In this document: piece after piece, positions 23,252-33,941 of the stretch
How the letters are laid out: every line of letters starts with the position of its first letter
Position numbering within the stretch: position 1 is the first letter of the stretch
Assembly (NCBI GenBank): GCA_025454975.1
Contig: JALONK010000001.1
Span: 1 to 64,000, forward strand
Source of the DNA: Bacteroidia bacterium
Lineage (GTDB): Bacteria > Bacteroidota > Bacteroidia > UKL13-3
Length of the DNA stretch: 64,000 bases
Reading direction: 5' to 3'
Translations under genes and position numbers: made by a program
Notes under the pieces: model-generated
Database searches by the model: none
The model's input: the letters and a program-made list of their open reading frames with translations, nothing else
Told to the model about the DNA's origin: nothing

Positions 23252-24745
23252 ATGAAACAAGTAATATTATTCATATCATTTATTACATTTTTTGGAGTTG
23301 CACTTCATGCTCAAAATTTAGAAGCAGACTTTGGAGAGAAAATCACTCCTGAAAAACTTTATGAGTTAAAGTCTTTTGTAGGTGAAGATGAAAGTGGATA
23401 TTATTATATAAAGGAAGAAACCTACCCACAATTTTTGAAAGCAGCTAAACAATTCTTAGTTAAACATAACAAAAGCCATGTGCAGGAATTTGTAGTTGAA
23501 ATTCCAAATAAATTTAAGAATAAATCCTTAGTTACTGAGTCTGTTAGGATGATAAATGGTAAGATGCATGTGTTTTGTACGCTTGCAGATTACAAGTCAG
23601 ACTTAAACCAACTTTATGTATCCATACTTGGAAGTGATAATGAATTTAGCACTCCGAAGTTGATTGATGAAATTGATTATAGAGGGAAGATAAATAGAGG
23701 TGGATTCGGAATTATAGAAAGTAAGATAAACAATAACCTTTTAATAACAAGAATAGAGGCTGATAGTAGAAGGCAAAAAGAAGCTTTTCATTACACCTTA
23801 TACGATAAGGACTTTAACTTGATTTGGAAAAAATTTATCGAGTTAGATTATAAAGATAAGGACTTTTTAATAGAAGGGTTTATAGCTGATGACGAGAATA
23901 ATGTATTCATGTTAGGTGAAATACCTAATAAGGATGGTACTGTAAAAAAAATCATTGTTGGATATTATCATAAAACAGATAAGGTTGAAGAAACATTTGT
24001 TGATGTAGGTGATGTAAAAAAATTTCAAAGTATTACACTTACAACATTGGATGGTAACTTATTGTTAACCGGTATTAGCTATGATGAAAATGAACATTTA
24101 TTAGGCGTTTTTATGGTGAAAATTAACAGTCGAAATTTAAATACCATCTTTAGTAAGCACATAAAATTTCCTGATAAGGATAGAAGAAAGCTAGTTAATA
24201 TAGACAATACATCTATGATTAAAGTTATTGGTGAAGATTATGTAATAAATGAAATTAAATTATTAAACGATGGCGGAATGTTGTTAATGGTAGAGCATCT
24301 AATCAAACCGAGGATGGATATAATGGAATTTATTCTTGTTCGTTTAAATAGTGAGTTAAATTATGAATGGCTACAATTTATCCCGTTTTATCAAAGTACC
24401 CAGGAAGGTAAAAATACATGGTTGGAATCCTACGCATATTTAATAGACAATAAGAATCTGTATATGGTTTATAATACCAATGTGAAGAATTTGGCCTTAA
24501 CCCCTAAGAATGGAATAAAAGCATATCTTGGAACCAATTTAGATAATTATAAAAATCTTATTTCAGCATACACAACTATTGATTTAAAGTCAGGCGAAAC
24601 CAATACAGAAGGCTTGTTCAAAGGTGAAACGAAAGAGAAATCATTTATCGCTCCAACATTCGGATATAGTCAATCGGAAAAAAAACTTTTGATGTTGGCC
24701 AAACAAGGTAAAGGTTTAAAATTTGGAGTTATAAATTTAAAATAA
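23252..24745 (+). CDS. Secreted protein of unknown family, paralogue 1 of 3
   Basis: The ATG at 23252 begins a signal peptide (MKQVILFISFITFFGVALHAQ); upstream sequence in the same frame is non-coding in character. The 497-residue product is beta-rich, Lys-rich and lacks membrane helices and a T9SS domain. It shares blocks with the genes at 25218 and 29257: YDKDFNLIWKKFIELDYKD, DDENNVFMLGE, and an ending FGVINLK. The repeated pattern of strands is like a beta-propeller, but I assign no family. It is the most distant of the three copies. Its own leader suggests a separate promoter. Confidence 0.7.
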   Translation: MKQVILFISFITFFGVALHAQNLEADFGEKITPEKLYELKSFVGEDESGYYYIKEETYPQFLKAAKQFLVKHNKSHVQEFVVEIPNKFKNKSLVTESVRMINGKMHVFCTLADYKSDLNQLYVSILGSDNEFSTPKLIDEIDYRGKINRGGFGIIESKINNNLLITRIEADSRRQKEAFHYTLYDKDFNLIWKKFIELDYKDKDFLIEGFIADDENNVFMLGEIPNKDGTVKKIIVGYYHKTDKVEETFVDVGDVKKFQSITLTTLDGNLLLTGISYDENEHLLGVFMVKINSRNLNTIFSKHIKFPDKDRRKLVNIDNTSMIKVIGEDYVINEIKLLNDGGMLLMVEHLIKPRMDIMEFILVRLNSELNYEWLQFIPFYQSTQEGKNTWLESYAYLIDNKNLYMVYNTNVKNLALTPKNGIKAYLGTNLDNYKNLISAYTTIDLKSGETNTEGLFKGETKEKSFIAPTFGYSQSEKKLLMLAKQGKGLKFGVINLK

Positions 24746-25217
24746 GCCTGTAACATTTAAACCAAGCTAGTTTTAGTGGTATTAATTTTTTTACTAATAC
24801 CAATCAGTTTTTTCATGTCAGGGCTTCTAATTTGTTTATTTTGGTATTCATCGAATTGTAAAGTTAAATTTTCGATTTAACACGTATATTAAATTTTACT
24901 TTTAAAATAAGCCATCGCTGATAATTTAATCCTTACTCGATTTTTTAAGGTTTAAAAAAGGCCTTCTTGATTTGAGTGCTAACCAATGATTACAACAGAT
25001 TTTAAAATGGTTAACGGGTTACGTATGTGCAAATTTTAGCTTAAAATAAGGTGAATTTTACTGCTAAGTTCCTACGATATAAAATCATTTTAGTTGTTTG
25101 GTACCGGTTTATTATGGTAAGTTAAATTACTATTAAGTATTTTACGATGGTTAAACGAAACATTGAAATATTTTGCCTTCCACTAAATTTATCTTTTATT
25201 GCAATAAAAAAAGTAAA
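24746..25217. other. Intergenic region, 472 bases, no gene
   Basis: Stops occur in all frames. TGGTATTA/TAATACCA (24777-24802) with a ten-base T-rich loop may be a terminator or operator after paralogue 1. The rest is AT-rich, and I see no RNA gene or repeat in it. Confidence 0.5.
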
Positions 25218-26759
25218 ATGTATAAATTAAAATTTCTACTTGCATTAGCATTTATTATGGTTAGCTCGGTTGTTTTTTCACAAAAGTTTGAATTGAACTG
25301 GCAACCTGAACAAAAGATTAAAAAGAATGACCGCATTGGTTCTGTGATAGGTAGTGACAAAAATGGGTATTATATGACTAAATATTCCCAAAGTGGCTTT
25401 TTGTTCGCTACGTATACCACTCATATAGTTCGACTTAATAAACAACACGAGGAGGAGTTCAGATTCGACGTACCATCTAAATTACATAATAAAGATTTAT
25501 CATTAGAGGGAATATATTATATTAATGAACAGTTATTTATCTTTAGTTCATACGATGATAAGAAGGCAGATTTAAAAAAGCTATTTGTTTTTCCTGTTAG
25601 TAAAAGTGGAGTGATTGGCGAAGAAAAGCAAATAGATGAAATAAGTTATAAAGACAGGAAAACAAAAGGAACTTTTATTATTAAAGTTTTAAATGAATCG
25701 AAAAAGATATTAGTCATCCACGAGGAGGGTTATACCAAAAAAGGGAATGAAGATGCAAAATTTTTATTATATGATTTTGACTTTAATTTGATTTGGGAGG
25801 AAAAAATAGAATTACCATATAAAGACAAGGAGTTTGTAATTGATGGGTATTTAGTTGATGAAGAAAATAATGTTTACATTATTGGTTCTCGTGAAGTAAA
25901 GAAATTATCTCAGAAGAAATTAATTGCATATTATGTAAAGTCCAAAAAGTTGGAAGAGGCCAACATTAACTTAAAACGAGTACACAAGGTTTCGGATTTA
26001 AACTATAATTTAGTTAATGGATTAATACAATTTACCGGATTTTATTTCAATGAAAAAGGTGGTATACAAGGAATTGTTAGAGAATCAATTGACCCGAAAA
26101 CACTTAAAAGTGTATCGGCAAAAGCAACTCCATTCGATAAAAAGGACATCTTAAAATTTGCTACTAAAAGGGCAGCGAAAAAAGATAAAGGTATTGCGTT
26201 TAATTATGATATAAGGCAAATAATATACGAAGAAAATGGGGATATTCTATTGGTGGCAGAAGGTTATCAACTTGTAGTTACTACTTCCCGCGATGCAAGG
26301 ACAGGAGCGACCCGCACAACCTATACATATTATTATTGGGATATAATGGTAGTAAGAATGGATAAAGAGGGAGAAATATTATGGTTACAAAAAGTACCCA
26401 AAAAGCAAATCAGTATGAATGATAATGGTTATTACTCCTCTTACTTATTTGTTCAAGACCAAAATAATTTTTACTTCATTTATAATACGCATTTTAAAAA
26501 TTTTTCACCTAAGCTTAAAGAGGATGAAAAAGGTGAGCAAGTTTATGCACCATCGCTTAAAAAGGGTGTAATAGCATTAACTACATTGAGCAAAAAAGAT
26601 GGCAAGTTTGAGTCAGAAATATTTAAAAGTGCAAGTAAGGATGCTAAAGCCAAGACTATTTTTGCGCCAAAACAAAGCGCATGGTTAAATGAAAATGAAA
26701 TTTTAGTTTATGGAGCATTTACTAGAAATTTCAGGTTAGGAATAATCACAGTAAAATGA
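25218..26759 (+). CDS. Secreted protein of unknown family, paralogue 2 of 3
   Basis: The ATG at 25218 gives a 513-residue protein with a signal peptide (MYKLKFLLALAF, cleaved near VVFSQ). Shared blocks with paralogue 3: EEGYTKKGNED, FNLIWEEKIELPYKDKEF, DEENNVYIIGS, FYFNEKGGIQGIVR, YDIRQIIYEENGDI, GEILWLQKVPKKQ and an ending LGIITVK. It looks like an all-beta secreted or periplasmic protein. Its stop overlaps the start of the PEGA-trypsin gene (ATGA), so the two are translated together. An insert with TTSRDARTGATRTTYTYYYW (about 368-387) is unlike the paralogues. Confidence 0.72.
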   Translation: MYKLKFLLALAFIMVSSVVFSQKFELNWQPEQKIKKNDRIGSVIGSDKNGYYMTKYSQSGFLFATYTTHIVRLNKQHEEEFRFDVPSKLHNKDLSLEGIYYINEQLFIFSSYDDKKADLKKLFVFPVSKSGVIGEEKQIDEISYKDRKTKGTFIIKVLNESKKILVIHEEGYTKKGNEDAKFLLYDFDFNLIWEEKIELPYKDKEFVIDGYLVDEENNVYIIGSREVKKLSQKKLIAYYVKSKKLEEANINLKRVHKVSDLNYNLVNGLIQFTGFYFNEKGGIQGIVRESIDPKTLKSVSAKATPFDKKDILKFATKRAAKKDKGIAFNYDIRQIIYEENGDILLVAEGYQLVVTTSRDARTGATRTTYTYYYWDIMVVRMDKEGEILWLQKVPKKQISMNDNGYYSSYLFVQDQNNFYFIYNTHFKNFSPKLKEDEKGEQVYAPSLKKGVIALTTLSKKDGKFESEIFKSASKDAKAKTIFAPKQSAWLNENEILVYGAFTRNFRLGIITVK

Positions 26760-28309
26760 GAATAAGCTTATCGTTTTATAATAAGAATTTTAAAGGTATA
26801 CCGCGTATTTTCTTCGGTATAAACATTCTTTTTTTTATATTATCAACGAGCTGTGCAACTATTTTAGCGGGTAAAAAAGATGATATAAAAGTTTATATAA
26901 CTTCTAATGTTCCTGAGGCAAAAGTATATGATAGTGAAAATAGATTATTGGGTACAACTCCGTTTTATTATCTCCCGGTTAAAACAAATGAAGAACAGAA
27001 GTTGAAAGTTGTGAAAGAAAATTATGAAACGCAAGAAATAAAAATTACGTTAAAAGAAAAATTGGGCTTTGTATTTTTAGATGCATTATTTTTAGGAATA
27101 CCTTATATTTATGATAAAGTTAATGGGGCTATTTATGAGGCTGATATTAATTCCATAGCTGTTTTTTTACCACGTATTTATTCGAAAACCGACGAGAAGC
27201 TTAATGTCATATTTGAAGATGTTGAATGGAAAATAGACGAAGGTAAATCAATTGGTTTTGATGGTGACAAGCCGATTTTCTTTAAAAAGAGTAATATTAG
27301 TTCATTTATTTATAAAAATACATTATGTGAAACCTCTAATAAAAGCAGGATAGTTGGAGTTAATTGTGATGATGATGAAGTTGAAAGCAATTTACTAGTG
27401 CATGCAAATACAATTACGATAAAACCTGTCATCAACTCTATGAAAATTAAATCGGAGTATGTTAAACGCAAATATGTTTCAAGTATAGATTTGAATGTGA
27501 CATGGTTATTTAATAAACGCGGAGATAGGACAGTACTGGAAGTTAAAGATTTAATAGCGTTTAAAGGTGCTGATTTAAGTTTAAAAAGTTTGATAGCCCA
27601 AGCGTTAAAAGCAAGTTTAACAAATGTTGCAAGTAACGATTCATTATTTAAATCATTAATGGATGAATCAAAGAACAATACAGATCCAATTAGTTTATTT
27701 AAAAAGATTGAGCTTGTTACAACACAAATACCCGCTTTTACGAAGAATAAAGACCTTATTCAATATCTTATGAAAGGGGTGGTAACAATCAAACACAATG
27801 ATGGACATGGGAGTGGATTTTTCATTGATGAAAACGGTTATTTAATTACCAATTATCACGTAATAAAAGGGAAAACAACTGTTGATGTACAGTTAAATGA
27901 GTCAATAACTTTGACGGCAGAAATAATTAGAGGCGATGAAGTTTATGATGTTGCATTGTTGAAAGTAAACGGAAAAGATTTTCGAGCGCTAACTTTATTA
28001 AATTCAGATTCTGCTTTAGCAGGTGAAGATGTATTTGCTATTGGTACTCCTGCTGATATTTCTTTAGGACAATCAGTGACAAAGGGAATTATTAGTGGTC
28101 GAAGAAAAATTGGCGAGAAAGTATTTATTCAAACTGATGTTGCAATTAATTCGGGGAATAGCGGAGGGCCATTGTTAAATGAAGATGGTAAAGTTATAGG
28201 AATGGTTACCATGAAGCTGGTTGGAGGTGGAGTACAAGGAATAGGTTTTTGTGTGCCTACGAATACTATCTTAGAAGTGTTAAACATTACATTAAAAGAT
28301 AAACCATGA
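26756..28309 (+). CDS. PEGA-domain lipoprotein with a C-terminal HtrA-like trypsin domain
   Basis: A 517-residue protein. It has an N-terminal hydrophobic leader with a possible lipid Cys (FILSTSCAT), a PEGA-type domain (about 42-85: ITSNVPEAKVYDSENRLLG, TPFYYLPV), a middle part of unknown fold (about 120-335), and a trypsin-like S1C domain (about 340-517). The catalytic triad is complete: His368 (TNYHVIKG), Asp398 (YDVALLKV), Ser469 (NSGNSGGP). There is no PDZ domain. It overlaps both neighbours by four bases. It probably sits in the periplasm or at a membrane and may cleave or check partner proteins. Confidence 0.82.
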   Translation: MRISLSFYNKNFKGIPRIFFGINILFFILSTSCATILAGKKDDIKVYITSNVPEAKVYDSENRLLGTTPFYYLPVKTNEEQKLKVVKENYETQEIKITLKEKLGFVFLDALFLGIPYIYDKVNGAIYEADINSIAVFLPRIYSKTDEKLNVIFEDVEWKIDEGKSIGFDGDKPIFFKKSNISSFIYKNTLCETSNKSRIVGVNCDDDEVESNLLVHANTITIKPVINSMKIKSEYVKRKYVSSIDLNVTWLFNKRGDRTVLEVKDLIAFKGADLSLKSLIAQALKASLTNVASNDSLFKSLMDESKNNTDPISLFKKIELVTTQIPAFTKNKDLIQYLMKGVVTIKHNDGHGSGFFIDENGYLITNYHVIKGKTTVDVQLNESITLTAEIIRGDEVYDVALLKVNGKDFRALTLLNSDSALAGEDVFAIGTPADISLGQSVTKGIISGRRKIGEKVFIQTDVAINSGNSGGPLLNEDGKVIGMVTMKLVGGGVQGIGFCVPTNTILEVLNITLKDKP

Positions 28310-28986
28310 GGAAGTTTTCTTTAATAATAATATCTACTTTTATCATAAACTCTTTGTCGGCTCAACAAAATAATTATTTAAAATTTTTTGGATTCGGCTA
28401 TGATAATTTGATTAGAGGTGTTGGGTTTGGTGATGAACTGGAAAAATATAATTGGTTTTTGACTTTGGGGTACGAAAGGACTATAGGTAGTCGAGTAGCT
28501 TTGGGTATAAACTTAGGTTATTTATACGGAGTAGAATTTCAAGAATTTCGCTCTGAATATACGCCAAAGGTTATACCGGGATACACACATGTAAGTTCTA
28601 GTTATTCAAGTCATGGATTCGCTTTCGGATACGAATCAAAATTCTTTCTTCATGATTTCGAAATGGAAGATGATGATGCAGGTGCCTATTTAGGATTTAA
28701 TTACCAGTTTATAAATATTAACGAGCGGCTGGAGGATACTAGATACAGTTTGAATAGCAATACCAATCAATCATTATTTGAGGCTTTTCCTGAAAACCAA
28801 TTTAAAATACATCGTTATGGAGTAAAACTTGGTGTTATTTTTCAAGGGCTTATCTTTAAAAATGAATTATCCCTTGGTGGTTATTTAAATTTTAATACAA
28901 GAAATAATAATCAACCTTGGGCTAATGCGATAAATATTGCTCCAATCTCTTTTAATGTTTCTTATTGCTGGGGTCTTCCTTTTTGA
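28306..28986 (+). CDS. Outer-membrane beta-barrel protein of the paralogue cluster
   Basis: A 226-residue protein with a signal peptide (INSLSAQ) and alternating strands that suggest an eight- or ten-strand barrel: TLGYERTIGSRVALGINLGY, SHGFAFGYESKFFLH, AGAYLGFNYQFINI and a closing strand FNVSYCWGLPF. It overlaps the protease gene by four bases (ATGA). I recognise no named family. It may be a surface partner of the protease and of paralogue 2, made from the same transcript. Confidence 0.68.
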   Translation: MRKFSLIIISTFIINSLSAQQNNYLKFFGFGYDNLIRGVGFGDELEKYNWFLTLGYERTIGSRVALGINLGYLYGVEFQEFRSEYTPKVIPGYTHVSSSYSSHGFAFGYESKFFLHDFEMEDDDAGAYLGFNYQFININERLEDTRYSLNSNTNQSLFEAFPENQFKIHRYGVKLGVIFQGLIFKNELSLGGYLNFNTRNNNQPWANAINIAPISFNVSYCWGLPF

Positions 28987-29256
28987 AAATATATTGTTTA
29001 ATCGTAGTTGAAGTCATACTGTTGATTAATGTTGATTTTAAGTAAATCTATTTTTTCCTAATACATATACAATTTTCTTAAATCCGGTTTAAAGTAGTTA
29101 CCAAGTGACGGGATTATGCTATTCATAGTTCGGGTTTTTATTATCACTTGAGTATGTAACATTGAAATGGGAAATCGCAGTTGTTAAATATTAATTATAT
29201 TTTTTGGTGGTTATGATAAAATGTTTTTTTTGATTTAATTGCTAAAAAATAAAATT

Positions 29257-30786
29257 ATGTATAAACTAAAAATGCTAATCTGTATCCTCTTCTTAGGTTC
29301 ATTTAATGTTAATGCTCAAAAAGCAAAAATCAATTGGGGGAAAGTTTATAAGCACAAGAAAAATCAAACATTATATGAAATAGTTGGCGCTGATAAGTCA
29401 GGCTATTTTATTGTAAAAGACCAGGTTAAAATGGTGGTTCAACGAACCTATGTTTACAGCATTCACAAATATAGTTTCAATCACGAAGAAATTTTTAATG
29501 TAGCAATTCCTAAAAAAATAGATGACAAAGCGGTTGATATCCATAGTTTTCATATCATAGATGATAAGTTTCATTTTTTTTATACCCACAACGATAAAAA
29601 ACTTGACACAAAGACTTTATTTGTTGTTACTGTAGATGCTAATGGAGTGTTTGGTAAATCCATTCAGTTGGATCAGATTAAATATAGCAGTAGAACAGAC
29701 AATGGGGATTTTAGATTGAGAGTGTTGGAGTCGTCAAAACGAATATTAATTATACGTGAAGAAGGAACTACAAAAAAGGGAGGCGAGGAGTTACGATTTA
29801 GTTTAAGGGATTATAATTTTAAAGCGATTTGGGAAGCAAATTTGGAACTTCCATATCAATCAAAAGATTTTAATGTAAAAAAATATATAGTTGACGGAGA
29901 AAACAATGTGTGTTTAGTTGGTTCATTGAATGTTGGTAAAGACAAGAGAAGCTACAGAGTAATAGTTTACAACCATAAAACTAAAAAAGTAAACGATATT
30001 CCAATAGAGTTTGACAATGTTGCAAAAATCTCAGATTTAAATTGCAGATTATTTGAGAACAAAATTCAAATTACCGGATTTTATTACAACAATAAAGGTG
30101 GAATTCAAGGAATAGTAAGAACGGACTTTGATGTTAAGTCATTAAGTGTAGTACTTGAGAAGTCAATACCTTTTGATAACGCTAATTTAATAAAGTTCAG
30201 TAGTGAGAAGGATATAGAAAAAGAAAAGGGCATATTATCTAATTATGATATTAAGCAAATAATCCATGCAGAAAACGGTGATTTAATAATTATGGCAGAA
30301 GAGTATAATTCGATTTCAACATCTGAAGCCAACTCATATTCTTCTACAGGGTATTATTTTTTCAATATTATGGCCATTCGAATATCGAAAAATGGTGAAA
30401 TTGTATGGGTCCAAAAGATTCCAAAACGACAATATAGTAGAGACGATGGTGGAATTTTTTCATCGTACATGAGTTTTTTCGATAGTAAGCAGGTTTATTT
30501 AATCTACATTAATAATCCTAAAAACATGGTTGACAAAGTAAAGTCGGGAGAAAAAGAGCAAGTAGTTACTTATACAATGGCAACGAATACGAATGTGCTT
30601 GCATTAACATCGCTTAACCAAACAAATGGTGAGTTCACCACTGAAACTTTAATTTCAGCAAAAGAAATGGGTAAATTTAGAATCAGCATGAGGGATATTG
30701 TGAAGTTAAAAGAAAACGAATACATCATTTACTCTAATTTTATTAATAGTTATAAGTTTGGTAGCTTAATTTTTAACTTCAAATAG
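29257..30786 (+). CDS. Secreted protein of unknown family, paralogue 3 of 3
   Basis: The ATG at 29257 gives a 509-residue protein with a signal peptide (MYKLKMLICILFLGSF, cleaved near NVNAQ). It matches paralogue 2 along its length: EEGTTKKGGEEL, ANLELPYQSKDF, DGENNVCLVGS, FYYNNKGGIQGIVR, YDIKQIIHAENGDL, GEIVWVQKIPKRQ and the final FGSLIFNFK. It is closer to copy 2 than to copy 1, down to the shared MYKLK start, so it is a recent duplicate. It stands alone, with 270 bases of leader and a strong hairpin terminator after it. Confidence 0.7.
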   Translation: MYKLKMLICILFLGSFNVNAQKAKINWGKVYKHKKNQTLYEIVGADKSGYFIVKDQVKMVVQRTYVYSIHKYSFNHEEIFNVAIPKKIDDKAVDIHSFHIIDDKFHFFYTHNDKKLDTKTLFVVTVDANGVFGKSIQLDQIKYSSRTDNGDFRLRVLESSKRILIIREEGTTKKGGEELRFSLRDYNFKAIWEANLELPYQSKDFNVKKYIVDGENNVCLVGSLNVGKDKRSYRVIVYNHKTKKVNDIPIEFDNVAKISDLNCRLFENKIQITGFYYNNKGGIQGIVRTDFDVKSLSVVLEKSIPFDNANLIKFSSEKDIEKEKGILSNYDIKQIIHAENGDLIIMAEEYNSISTSEANSYSSTGYYFFNIMAIRISKNGEIVWVQKIPKRQYSRDDGGIFSSYMSFFDSKQVYLIYINNPKNMVDKVKSGEKEQVVTYTMATNTNVLALTSLNQTNGEFTTETLISAKEMGKFRISMRDIVKLKENEYIIYSNFINSYKFGSLIFNFK

Positions 30787-31322: not shown

Positions 31323-33941
31323 ATGGCAAAGGAAAAACCGGTAAACTATAAGTTTCGCGACCTCAAAGTTTTTGGGTCAACCGAATGGCTTGCCAATAAT
31401 GAAAAAAAATATCGACTGGTTTACGACGAATCTGAATGTACATTTATGTATTGTGAGTTGTCGTTCTTCAATAAGTTATTTGATGAAGAGGACTGGGAGA
31501 TTCGTATTAGCCTGAAGTGTGTTAATCTTCAAGATAAAAGTGAAATCTGCAATTTGGTTGCAGATCGAACCATTAAAAAAGATGAAAACATTGTTTACAT
31601 AAGAGAAGGTTGGGGAGTGAAAACACCCGGCATGTATTGGAAAAAAGGACACTACCGCTGGGAGGCATGGATTGACAGTGTATTTGTTGCAGAAAAAGTA
31701 TTTTATGTAGAAGACGAAGGTGTAGTTTCTGATACCGTTAATCCTTACTTTAATTTAAATCAAATCAGACTTTACGAAGCACCTGATAGTAATATTCCAA
31801 AGAAGGAACGTAAATATTTAAGTGCATTTAGTACAACTGAAACGCGTTATGTTTGGGTTGAATTAACCTGTGAAAATTTAGTAAGAAGTCAGCAAAACTG
31901 GCAATGTGAACTCTTCTTTAACTTTAAAACACATAGTGGTCAACTTAAAGGAAGCATTGAAAAGCTGATTACCGTTTATGCGAATGAACAACAATTTGAA
32001 TGTGCCATTGGTTGGGGTAGTGATTTAAAAGGAACCTGGGGTGACGATGTATACACTGTTGATATTGTTTTTATGGATCAACTAATTGCATCCACCTCAT
32101 TTGAAGTTGGTACTCAGTTTGTAGAATCACAGGAACCAAGTTTGCTGTTTACTCAGAAACAAAAGCCTAAACTTCTTACTGAAAAAAATCAAGTAGAAGA
32201 AAACGAGAAAATTGAAAATGTGCTGCATGAGTTAGATGGATTAATAGGATTAGGTAGCATAAAAAAGAAAGTAAAAGAATATACTACCTATCTTAATTTT
32301 ATTCGTATCAGAAAGGAGAAGGGATTCGAAGATAATGATAAGATAAACCTTCATGCTGTGTTCACCGGTAATCCTGGTACAGGTAAAACAACTGTTGCTA
32401 AAATGCTTGGTAAAATTTATCATGAACTAGGATTGTTGAGCAAAGGACATGTAATAGAAGCTGATAGGAGCGACTTGGTAGCAGAGTATATTGGTCAAAC
32501 CGCACCTAAAACAAAAGAGGCAATTAAAAAGGCAAGAGGTGGAATCTTGTTTATAGATGAGGCTTATGCATTAGCTAGAAAAAATGATGATTCCAAAGAT
32601 TTTGGTAAAGAAGCAATTGAAATTTTACTTAAAGAAATGAGTGATGGCGATGGTGATTTAGCAATTATTGTAGCCGGTTATCCTGATGAGATGGCGGGAT
32701 TTCTTGAATCAAATCCAGGTTTAAAATCTCGATTTAGTATGTATTACGATTTCCCGGATTATACCCCTCAAGAACTGATGCGTATTGCTGATTACACGGC
32801 AGATAAAAAATCTGTAGTTTTTAGTTCATCAGCAGTTGATGTAATTTATAAGCGACTTGTAGATTCGTATAGAGACCGAGATAAAACTTTTGGTAATGCA
32901 AGATTTGTAAATAAACTACTTGACGATGCGAAGATGAACATGGGACTTCGTATTATGAAACATGAACATCCGGCGACTTTAACAAAGGAGGAACTTTCTA
33001 CGATTGAAGCAGAAGATGTTGAACGTATCTTTGAAACCAAAGATAAAAGTATTGCAGATATACCAATTGATGAAGAACTTTTACGTTCGGCCTTGAACAC
33101 CTTGCATAGTATGATAGGACTTGGTGCAATTAAACAAGAGATCGACGAATTGGTTAAACTGGTGCGTTTTTATAAAGAAATTGGTAAAGATATTCGACAA
33201 AGCTTCTCATTGCATGCCGTATTTACCGGAAATCCGGGCACAGGTAAAACAACTGTAGCTCGTTTGTTGGCTCAAATATATAAAGCTCTCGGAATTCTAG
33301 AAAGGGGTAATCTTGTAGAGTGTGACAGGCAGGCCTTGGTTGGAGGCTATGTTGGTCAAACAGCCATTAAAACAAATGAAGTAATTAATAAGGCAAAAGG
33401 AGGAGTTCTTTTTGTTGATGAAGCTTACGCATTAAGTGAAGGTGGCGAAAATGATTTTGGTAAAGAAGCAGTAGAAGCTATTTTAAAAAGAATGGAGGAT
33501 GAAAGGGGAGAGTTTGTGGTGATTGTGGCCGGATATACCGACAATATGAAAAATTTCTTAGCGTCGAATCCCGGATTAAGTTCTCGGTTTGATAGAACAT
33601 TATTTTTTGAAGATTATAACGACGAGCAGCTTTTTGAAATAGCCTTACGTATGCTGGCTAATAATAGTATAGTGCCCGACGAAAATGCTAAGGCACACTT
33701 AAAGGCTTATATGGAGTTTATGTATAAAACCAGAAATCAATATTTTGGTAATGCGAGAAGTGTAAGAAAATTGGTGGAAGAAACAATCAAAAATCAGCAT
33801 CTACGATTGGCTAAAACAGATCAGGATAAGCGTACACGTGAAATGATAAGTGAACTTACATTGGCTGATGTGCAAGAATTTCAAATAGATTATAATGCAG
33901 TTGCCGAAAAACGAACCATTGGTTTTCAGCCGCGTGGTTAG
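31323..33941 (+). CDS. Twin-AAA CbxX/CfqX-type ATPase with duplicated N-terminal domain
   Basis: An 872-residue protein. Two CbxX-type AAA+ modules follow an N-terminal region of about 265 residues. Module 1: Walker A GNPGTGKT 349-356, Walker B GGILFIDEA with Asp412. Module 2: Walker A 636-643, Walker B GGVLFVDEA with Asp699. Both have the pore-region YxGQTAxKT segment and both look active. The N-terminal region is two repeats of about 125 residues, each ending in GWG (96-98, 230-232) and a strand FxV (about 127 and 260), probably beta-sandwiches. There is no signal or membrane segment, so it is cytosolic. Relatives include SpoVK, EccA and CbbX. The client is unknown. Confidence 0.88.
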   Translation: MAKEKPVNYKFRDLKVFGSTEWLANNEKKYRLVYDESECTFMYCELSFFNKLFDEEDWEIRISLKCVNLQDKSEICNLVADRTIKKDENIVYIREGWGVKTPGMYWKKGHYRWEAWIDSVFVAEKVFYVEDEGVVSDTVNPYFNLNQIRLYEAPDSNIPKKERKYLSAFSTTETRYVWVELTCENLVRSQQNWQCELFFNFKTHSGQLKGSIEKLITVYANEQQFECAIGWGSDLKGTWGDDVYTVDIVFMDQLIASTSFEVGTQFVESQEPSLLFTQKQKPKLLTEKNQVEENEKIENVLHELDGLIGLGSIKKKVKEYTTYLNFIRIRKEKGFEDNDKINLHAVFTGNPGTGKTTVAKMLGKIYHELGLLSKGHVIEADRSDLVAEYIGQTAPKTKEAIKKARGGILFIDEAYALARKNDDSKDFGKEAIEILLKEMSDGDGDLAIIVAGYPDEMAGFLESNPGLKSRFSMYYDFPDYTPQELMRIADYTADKKSVVFSSSAVDVIYKRLVDSYRDRDKTFGNARFVNKLLDDAKMNMGLRIMKHEHPATLTKEELSTIEAEDVERIFETKDKSIADIPIDEELLRSALNTLHSMIGLGAIKQEIDELVKLVRFYKEIGKDIRQSFSLHAVFTGNPGTGKTTVARLLAQIYKALGILERGNLVECDRQALVGGYVGQTAIKTNEVINKAKGGVLFVDEAYALSEGGENDFGKEAVEAILKRMEDERGEFVVIVAGYTDNMKNFLASNPGLSSRFDRTLFFEDYNDEQLFEIALRMLANNSIVPDENAKAHLKAYMEFMYKTRNQYFGNARSVRKLVEETIKNQHLRLAKTDQDKRTREMISELTLADVQEFQIDYNAVAEKRTIGFQPRG

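Follow-up and report, generated by a model that had tools for sequence, protein, structure and literature searches.

Three consecutive genes in a Bacteroidia genome (25218-28986) appear to form one operon, apparently undescribed, that encodes a secreted beta-propeller protein, a lipoprotein protease with a catalytic domain of the HtrA type and a putative small outer-membrane barrel. The locus comes from Bacteroidia bacterium GCA_025454975.1 (contig JALONK010000001.1), where a stretch of 64,000 nt, termed here the window, was analyzed and provides all coordinates. The anatomy of the operon is well supported and it looks like an undescribed envelope protease module, the function and mechanism of which we infer. 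A literature search found no described counterpart of this propeller-protease-barrel arrangement, in agreement with the preliminary description of the locus, which had recognized none.

Organization of the locus

All of the genes were found at the positions previously given for them (Table 1), and the two couplings that had been reported, of the middle propeller gene to the protease gene and of the protease gene to the barrel gene, are real in the sequence. In an ATGA at 26756-26759 the propeller stop overlaps the protease start, and a second ATGA, at 28306-28309, links the protease stop to the barrel start in the same way. The leaders of the three propeller genes are AT-rich and align with one another at background level only, giving no shared element, a scan of them for the Bacteroidota -33/-7 motif found nothing, and two tRNAs were the only matches in an Rfam scan of the region. 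Further along the window (31323-33941) is a gene for an AAA protein that has two ATPase modules of the CbbX/SpoVK type and no assignment for its N-terminal part. This ATPase was considered as a fourth part of the system and rejected, because it comes after the trio of operon genes in genomes of the same genus only, where the whole locus is syntenic.

Table 1. Features of the propeller-protease-barrel locus, in window coordinates.
Feature	Position	Strand	Properties
Propeller paralogue 1	23252..24745	+	497 aa, signal peptide; stand-alone, predicted fast-evolving duplicate
Operon propeller (paralogue 2)	25218..26759	+	513 aa, signal peptide, no lipobox; predicted secreted beta-propeller
Lipoprotein protease	26756..28309	+	517 aa; lipobox, PEGA-type, middle and PDZ-less HtrA-type trypsin domains (predicted)
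Lipobox cysteine C33 codon	26852..26854	+	Conserved without exception in 13 homologues; not followed by a D/E-rich export signal
PEGA-type domain, residues 45-101	26888..27058	+	PF08308 20.6 bits; 42.6 bits in L080 homologue
Protease middle domain, about residues 135-340	27158..27775	+	No Pfam match; conserved C191, C204
HtrA-type catalytic domain, residues 341-513	27776..28294	+	No PDZ after it
Triad codons	H368 27857-27859; D398 27947-27949; S469 28160-28162	+	
Small outer-membrane barrel-like protein	28306..28986	+	226 aa, signal peptide, C-terminal Phe
Propeller paralogue 3	29257..30786	+	509 aa, signal peptide; stand-alone, predicted duplicate

The propeller family and its extra copies

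The three signal-peptide proteins of 497-513 residues had been described as alignable over their full length, and they are true paralogues. Copies 3 and 1 both align with copy 2 from end to end, at about 40% identity (E 4.7e-115) and about 28-31% identity (E 3.7e-52), respectively, and with such E-values their paralogy is therefore not a matter of chance. The signal peptides of all three end in A/S-Q. The blocks said to be shared fared less well, since KGGIQGIVR is present in copies 2 and 3 and absent from copy 1, and the supposed common ending LGxI does not hold, the final strand keeping just one conserved glycine. In line with the novelty that had been suggested for them, no named family was found for the paralogues, which have no credible match in Pfam, NCBIfam, PADLOC or PDB sequence searches, and the same is true of 75 homologues in Pfam, NCBIfam and PDB sequence searches. 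The AlphaFold2 model of the operon propeller (from the 75-sequence alignment) is confident and all-beta, with a pLDDT of 92.4, a pTM of 0.89 and about 30 strands, and its best 50 Foldseek matches in the PDB are mostly propeller-containing proteins from unrelated families (TM ≤0.45). Given this model and the dominance of propellers among its matches, the paralogues are called beta-propellers, with a predicted seven or eight blades (counted by eye from the strand list of the model) and no close solved relative.

Of the 64 genomes in the window's family, 62 contain propeller homologues. Across the phylum, the collection scan found homologues in 160 genome stretches, and at least 27 of the 296 genomes drawn evenly from Bacteroidota contain one, a lower bound because only five candidates were scored per genome. 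Most members of the family stand alone, without a protease. This phylum-wide and unnamed Bacteroidota family makes a clear candidate for definition as a new domain family.

In the propeller tree, one clade (SH-aLRT 99) unites copies 1, 2 and 3 with operon propellers from their genus; copy 3 is the sister of copy 2 (SH-aLRT 98), and the end branches of copies 1 and 3 are longer (1.65 and 1.17, against 0.47). Copies 1 and 3 are by this phylogeny diverged duplicates of the operon propeller rather than parts of the operon. Because of this, the system, which had been portrayed as three paralogues around a protease and a barrel, is better seen as the operon itself, accompanied by two fast-evolving duplicates. 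Another genome (G054) has its own extra propeller copy elsewhere in its locus. The window's genome also contains a fourth, distant paralogue on another contig (G000:C47:105989-107440; L089:7986-9449), which adjoins a probable cell-wall peptidase gene and genes for other exported proteins, and nearly all genomes of the family contain distant homologues of this sort.

The protease and its location

The second gene product is, as predicted from its sequence, a PEGA-type lipoprotein with an uncharacterized middle domain and a PDZ-less catalytic domain of the HtrA type. The trypsin domain (PF13365, 1.5e-31) has the complete HtrA-like triad that had been reported, with H368, D398 and S469 invariant in 13 homologues, and the top Foldseek matches of the catalytic domain are HhoA, DegP and DegS without its PDZ. 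The protease scores 173 bits against TIGR02037 (Do family, NCBIfam), which is below the curated cut-off of 416, and Pfam and NCBIfam searches found no PDZ domain in the protein, which ends just past the trypsin domain. Since the PDZ is missing, the label HtrA-like holds for the catalytic domain only. Matches of the protease to the RT-Protease and Avs1b defence models were rejected as trypsin-domain similarity only.

The PEGA domain previously assigned to the lipoprotein falls just short in the window, where PF08308 gives 20.6 bits (cut-off 20.8), and is borne out by homologues from other trios, which score 23.3 and 42.6 bits (the latter in L080). The middle domain is far less conserved than the catalytic domain but keeps two cysteines (C191 and C204), and the model of the whole protease is poor (pLDDT 65.6). 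Along its full length, the N-terminal half is homologous to the corresponding part of other PEGA-trypsin proteins in Bacteroidota (hhalign E 1.1e-22, 312 aligned columns), and this type of protease is therefore wider than the trio. A PEGA-middle-trypsin protease is also encoded in another conserved operon, where its companions are a lipoprotein of ∼393 aa and an exported protein of ∼260 aa (L222:601-4042, L223:3056-6498, L225:1511-4930).

In Bacteroidota, surface lipoproteins are exported by a signal just past the +1 cysteine, K-(D/E)2 or Q-A-(D/E)2 (PMC5080379). This signal is absent from all 13 protease homologues, which have 0-1 acidic residues at positions +2 to +6, and no NCBIfam model of the type IX secretion system (T9SS) C-terminal domain (CTD) matches any of the 75 propellers at E 0.1. 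Nothing here thus supports the surface location proposed earlier for the system. With these signals missing, the default placement is the periplasm, the protease being presumed from its sequence to be bound to the outer membrane and to face the periplasm.

The barrel and other propeller pairings

The third gene product is a putative small outer-membrane barrel. From sequence only, the barrel proteins of the trios (204-242 aa) have a signal peptide, 8-13 amphipathic segments and, in 12 of the 13 aligned, a C-terminal F/Y/W. Two tandem barrel genes follow the protease gene in one genome (G029, L075:6520-7930).

Propellers are also paired with barrels outside the trio. A small exported barrel-like gene directly adjoins the propeller gene in 23 of 71 non-trio loci in the collection scan, some of which are near duplicates. 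Such neighbors occur in many Bacteroidota lineages, and their genes either immediately precede the propeller gene in the same orientation (∼190-210 aa; L110, L111, L113, L116, L120, L128, L133, L162) or are divergent from it (∼234-275 aa; L095, L100, L136, L144, L149, L159, L163). Single-sequence hhalign was uninformative, and the two barrel families were compared profile to profile with decoys. This gave an hhalign E of 5.8e-11, compared with 8.5e-4 (best of the unrelated exported families), 0.037 (reversed sequences) and 1e-4 to 1.1e-5 (PF13568-type barrels from the same genome, a general barrel control), which suggests that the two families are related, distantly. Unlike the window's barrel family, which has no match in Pfam, DUF3575 (PF12099) included, 7 of 19 propeller-adjacent barrels match DUF3575 weakly (best 3e-5), and the first such homologue scored 18.6, under the cut-off of 21.1. 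A universal link between propeller and barrel was rejected: no barrel neighbor is recognizable at 18 propeller loci inspected in the phylum sample, and the weak matches of the barrel profile in that sample are not next to propellers. In three genomes (G005, G008 and G063), a propeller-like gene and a gene for a related PDZ-less secreted trypsin protease, which lacks a lipobox, diverge from adjacent starts (L082:8593-11752, L083:7187-10375, L085:6697-9858).

Conservation of the trio

The trio co-occurs in other genomes of uncultured Bacteroidota, as would be expected of the system that had been suggested, and it does so in differing chromosomal contexts. It is present in 13 of the 64 genomes of the window's family and in five of its 14 genera, with gene order and strand identical in all 13 and with flanking genes that are common within the window's genus and different between genera. 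In one of these trios the barrel gene is cut by a contig end (G061) and in another the propeller gene is broken (G047); the junction gaps, measured in 11 trios, range from -26 to +41 nt. The distance matrices of the three proteins agree with r values of 0.92-0.96 (11 trios, pairs below 70% identity, near-identical pairs being excluded). The barrel diverges fastest, as expected of exposed loops, with a mean identity of 24% versus 36% and 41% for the other two proteins. The full-length N-half of the protease is found 13 times in the family, always inside the trio, and in a phylum sample of 395 genomes its sole full-length match is the window's own genome, the matches in the 394 other Bacteroidota genomes being PEGA lipoproteins or partial stretches.

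The broken propeller gene of G047 (C38:124-33900; L261, L081) is split by ∼33 kb with Mu-type phage genes, including those for a DNA transposition protein, a Mu Gam-like protein and a reverse transcriptase, and the protease and barrel genes downstream of it are open and intact. In this genome (L081:11135-15758) and in G048 (L080:10646-15254), an apparent ECF sigma gene and two more genes directly follow the trio.

Possible function of the operon

Our preferred but tentative reading is that the operon encodes a protease module that is bound to the outer membrane and faces the periplasm. In such a module the barrel would be the base in the outer membrane, and the propeller, docked on it from the periplasm, would bind a ligand or client. 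Lipid-tethered beside them, the protease would receive its targeting or activation from these partners in place of a PDZ. Propeller and barrel would be the older pair, to which the protease was added later in the window's family, and copies 1 and 3 could be alternative, diverged propellers with other binding specificities. From the sequences we infer a possible complex of the three products, in which the protease is directed by propeller and barrel and its specificity is varied by the extra propellers. It is rather unlikely, if conceivable, that this extends to a previously undescribed outer-membrane proteolysis machine in which propeller and barrel, in place of the PDZ, select the clients of a lipoprotein protease of the HtrA type and the duplicated, diverging propellers are interchangeable recognition subunits.

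An unlikely alternative is that the small barrel anchors the propeller on, or exports it to, the cell surface, a role proposed in B. thetaiotaomicron for the barrel Bt1926 toward its S-layer partner Bt1927, with the trio protease trimming or maturing the propeller. The repeated pairing of propeller and barrel, the rapid evolution of the barrel and the diversification of the propellers are all consistent with surface display, and an 8-stranded barrel reported in Bacteroidota is described as the putative anchor of a surface protein, or its partner in secretion (PMC12578637). However, the propellers have neither a type IX CTD match nor a lipobox, and the protease, having no export signal, would be across the membrane from its proposed substrate.

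It is improbable that the three are unrelated envelope genes that share an operon through common regulation, with no physical partnership. Propellers and related proteases are each found alone, as this would predict, but the unit is kept in five genera in differing contexts with congruent divergence, and the propeller has repeatedly been re-paired with a barrel or a protease in other arrangements.

Also distinctly improbable is an envelope-stress sensor of the DegS kind, in which the propeller inhibits the protease and releases it once the barrel has misfolded or has bound a signal. The match of the catalytic domain to DegS minus its PDZ, the terminal F/Y/W of the barrels and the apparent sigma gene after two of the trios fit such a sensor, but the protease has no PDZ with which to read the C-termini of outer-membrane proteins and is a lipoprotein without an inner-membrane anchor, the adjacency of the sigma gene is limited to one genus and the propeller is mostly found without the protease. 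Least probable is the role of dedicated protease substrate or inhibitor first suggested for the propeller, since, for all the strict adjacency in 13 genomes and the divergent propeller-protease pairs in three, a propeller homologue occurs in nearly every genome of the family and the protease in 13, the distant propellers stand alone, and a basic role of this kind is unlikely because the propeller family is mostly without the protease.

Comparison with known systems

The preferred reading, a periplasm-facing protease module, can be set beside several known systems. The PorU-PorV-PorZ attachment complex of the T9SS likewise brings together a peptidase, a barrel and a beta-propeller protein, which cooperate at the outer membrane. 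The PorV barrel is larger than that of the trio. PorU is a cysteine peptidase and PorZ consists of two seven-fold propellers and a CTD (PMC5121618). Two such tandem propellers are not seen in the operon propeller, the 513-aa model of which is a single run of strands, and its family has no match to a T9SS CTD model. BamB and BamI place a beta-propeller on an outer-membrane barrel machine, similar to the arrangement proposed for the trio, and BamI of Bacteroidota is an extracellular member of the BAM complex with an Ig-like domain and a six-bladed propeller (PMC12578637). However, neither has a sequence match to the trio propeller, and the trio barrel, of ∼200 aa, is not BamA. Compared by description, Bt1926 of B. 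thetaiotaomicron, a small 8-stranded barrel, and its S-layer partner Bt1927, a 100-kDa surface lipoprotein (PMC12578637), resemble the trio in combining a barrel with a large exported partner, but no protease is reported there.

The same architecture as that of the trio protease is found in unnamed PEGA-middle-trypsin proteins of Bacteroidota (for example L084, L086, L225, L229, L230), most of which, unlike the trio protease, have no propeller encoded next to them; three of the kind, in L082, L083 and L085, form divergent pairs with a propeller-like gene. Proteases of the HtrA type protect the envelope, and the known ones use their PDZ domains for self-regulation and client choice. The trio protease has the catalytic domain and triad of HtrA, DegP and DegS (TIGR02037, PF13365) but differs from them in the missing PDZ, in an N-half made of a PEGA lipoprotein part and the middle domain, and in its operon partners, the propeller and the barrel. 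If an HtrA enzyme without a PDZ is indeed tethered to the outer membrane alongside such partners, it would represent another targeting route for this enzyme, and the pairing of the propeller family with barrels makes the role of that family testable.
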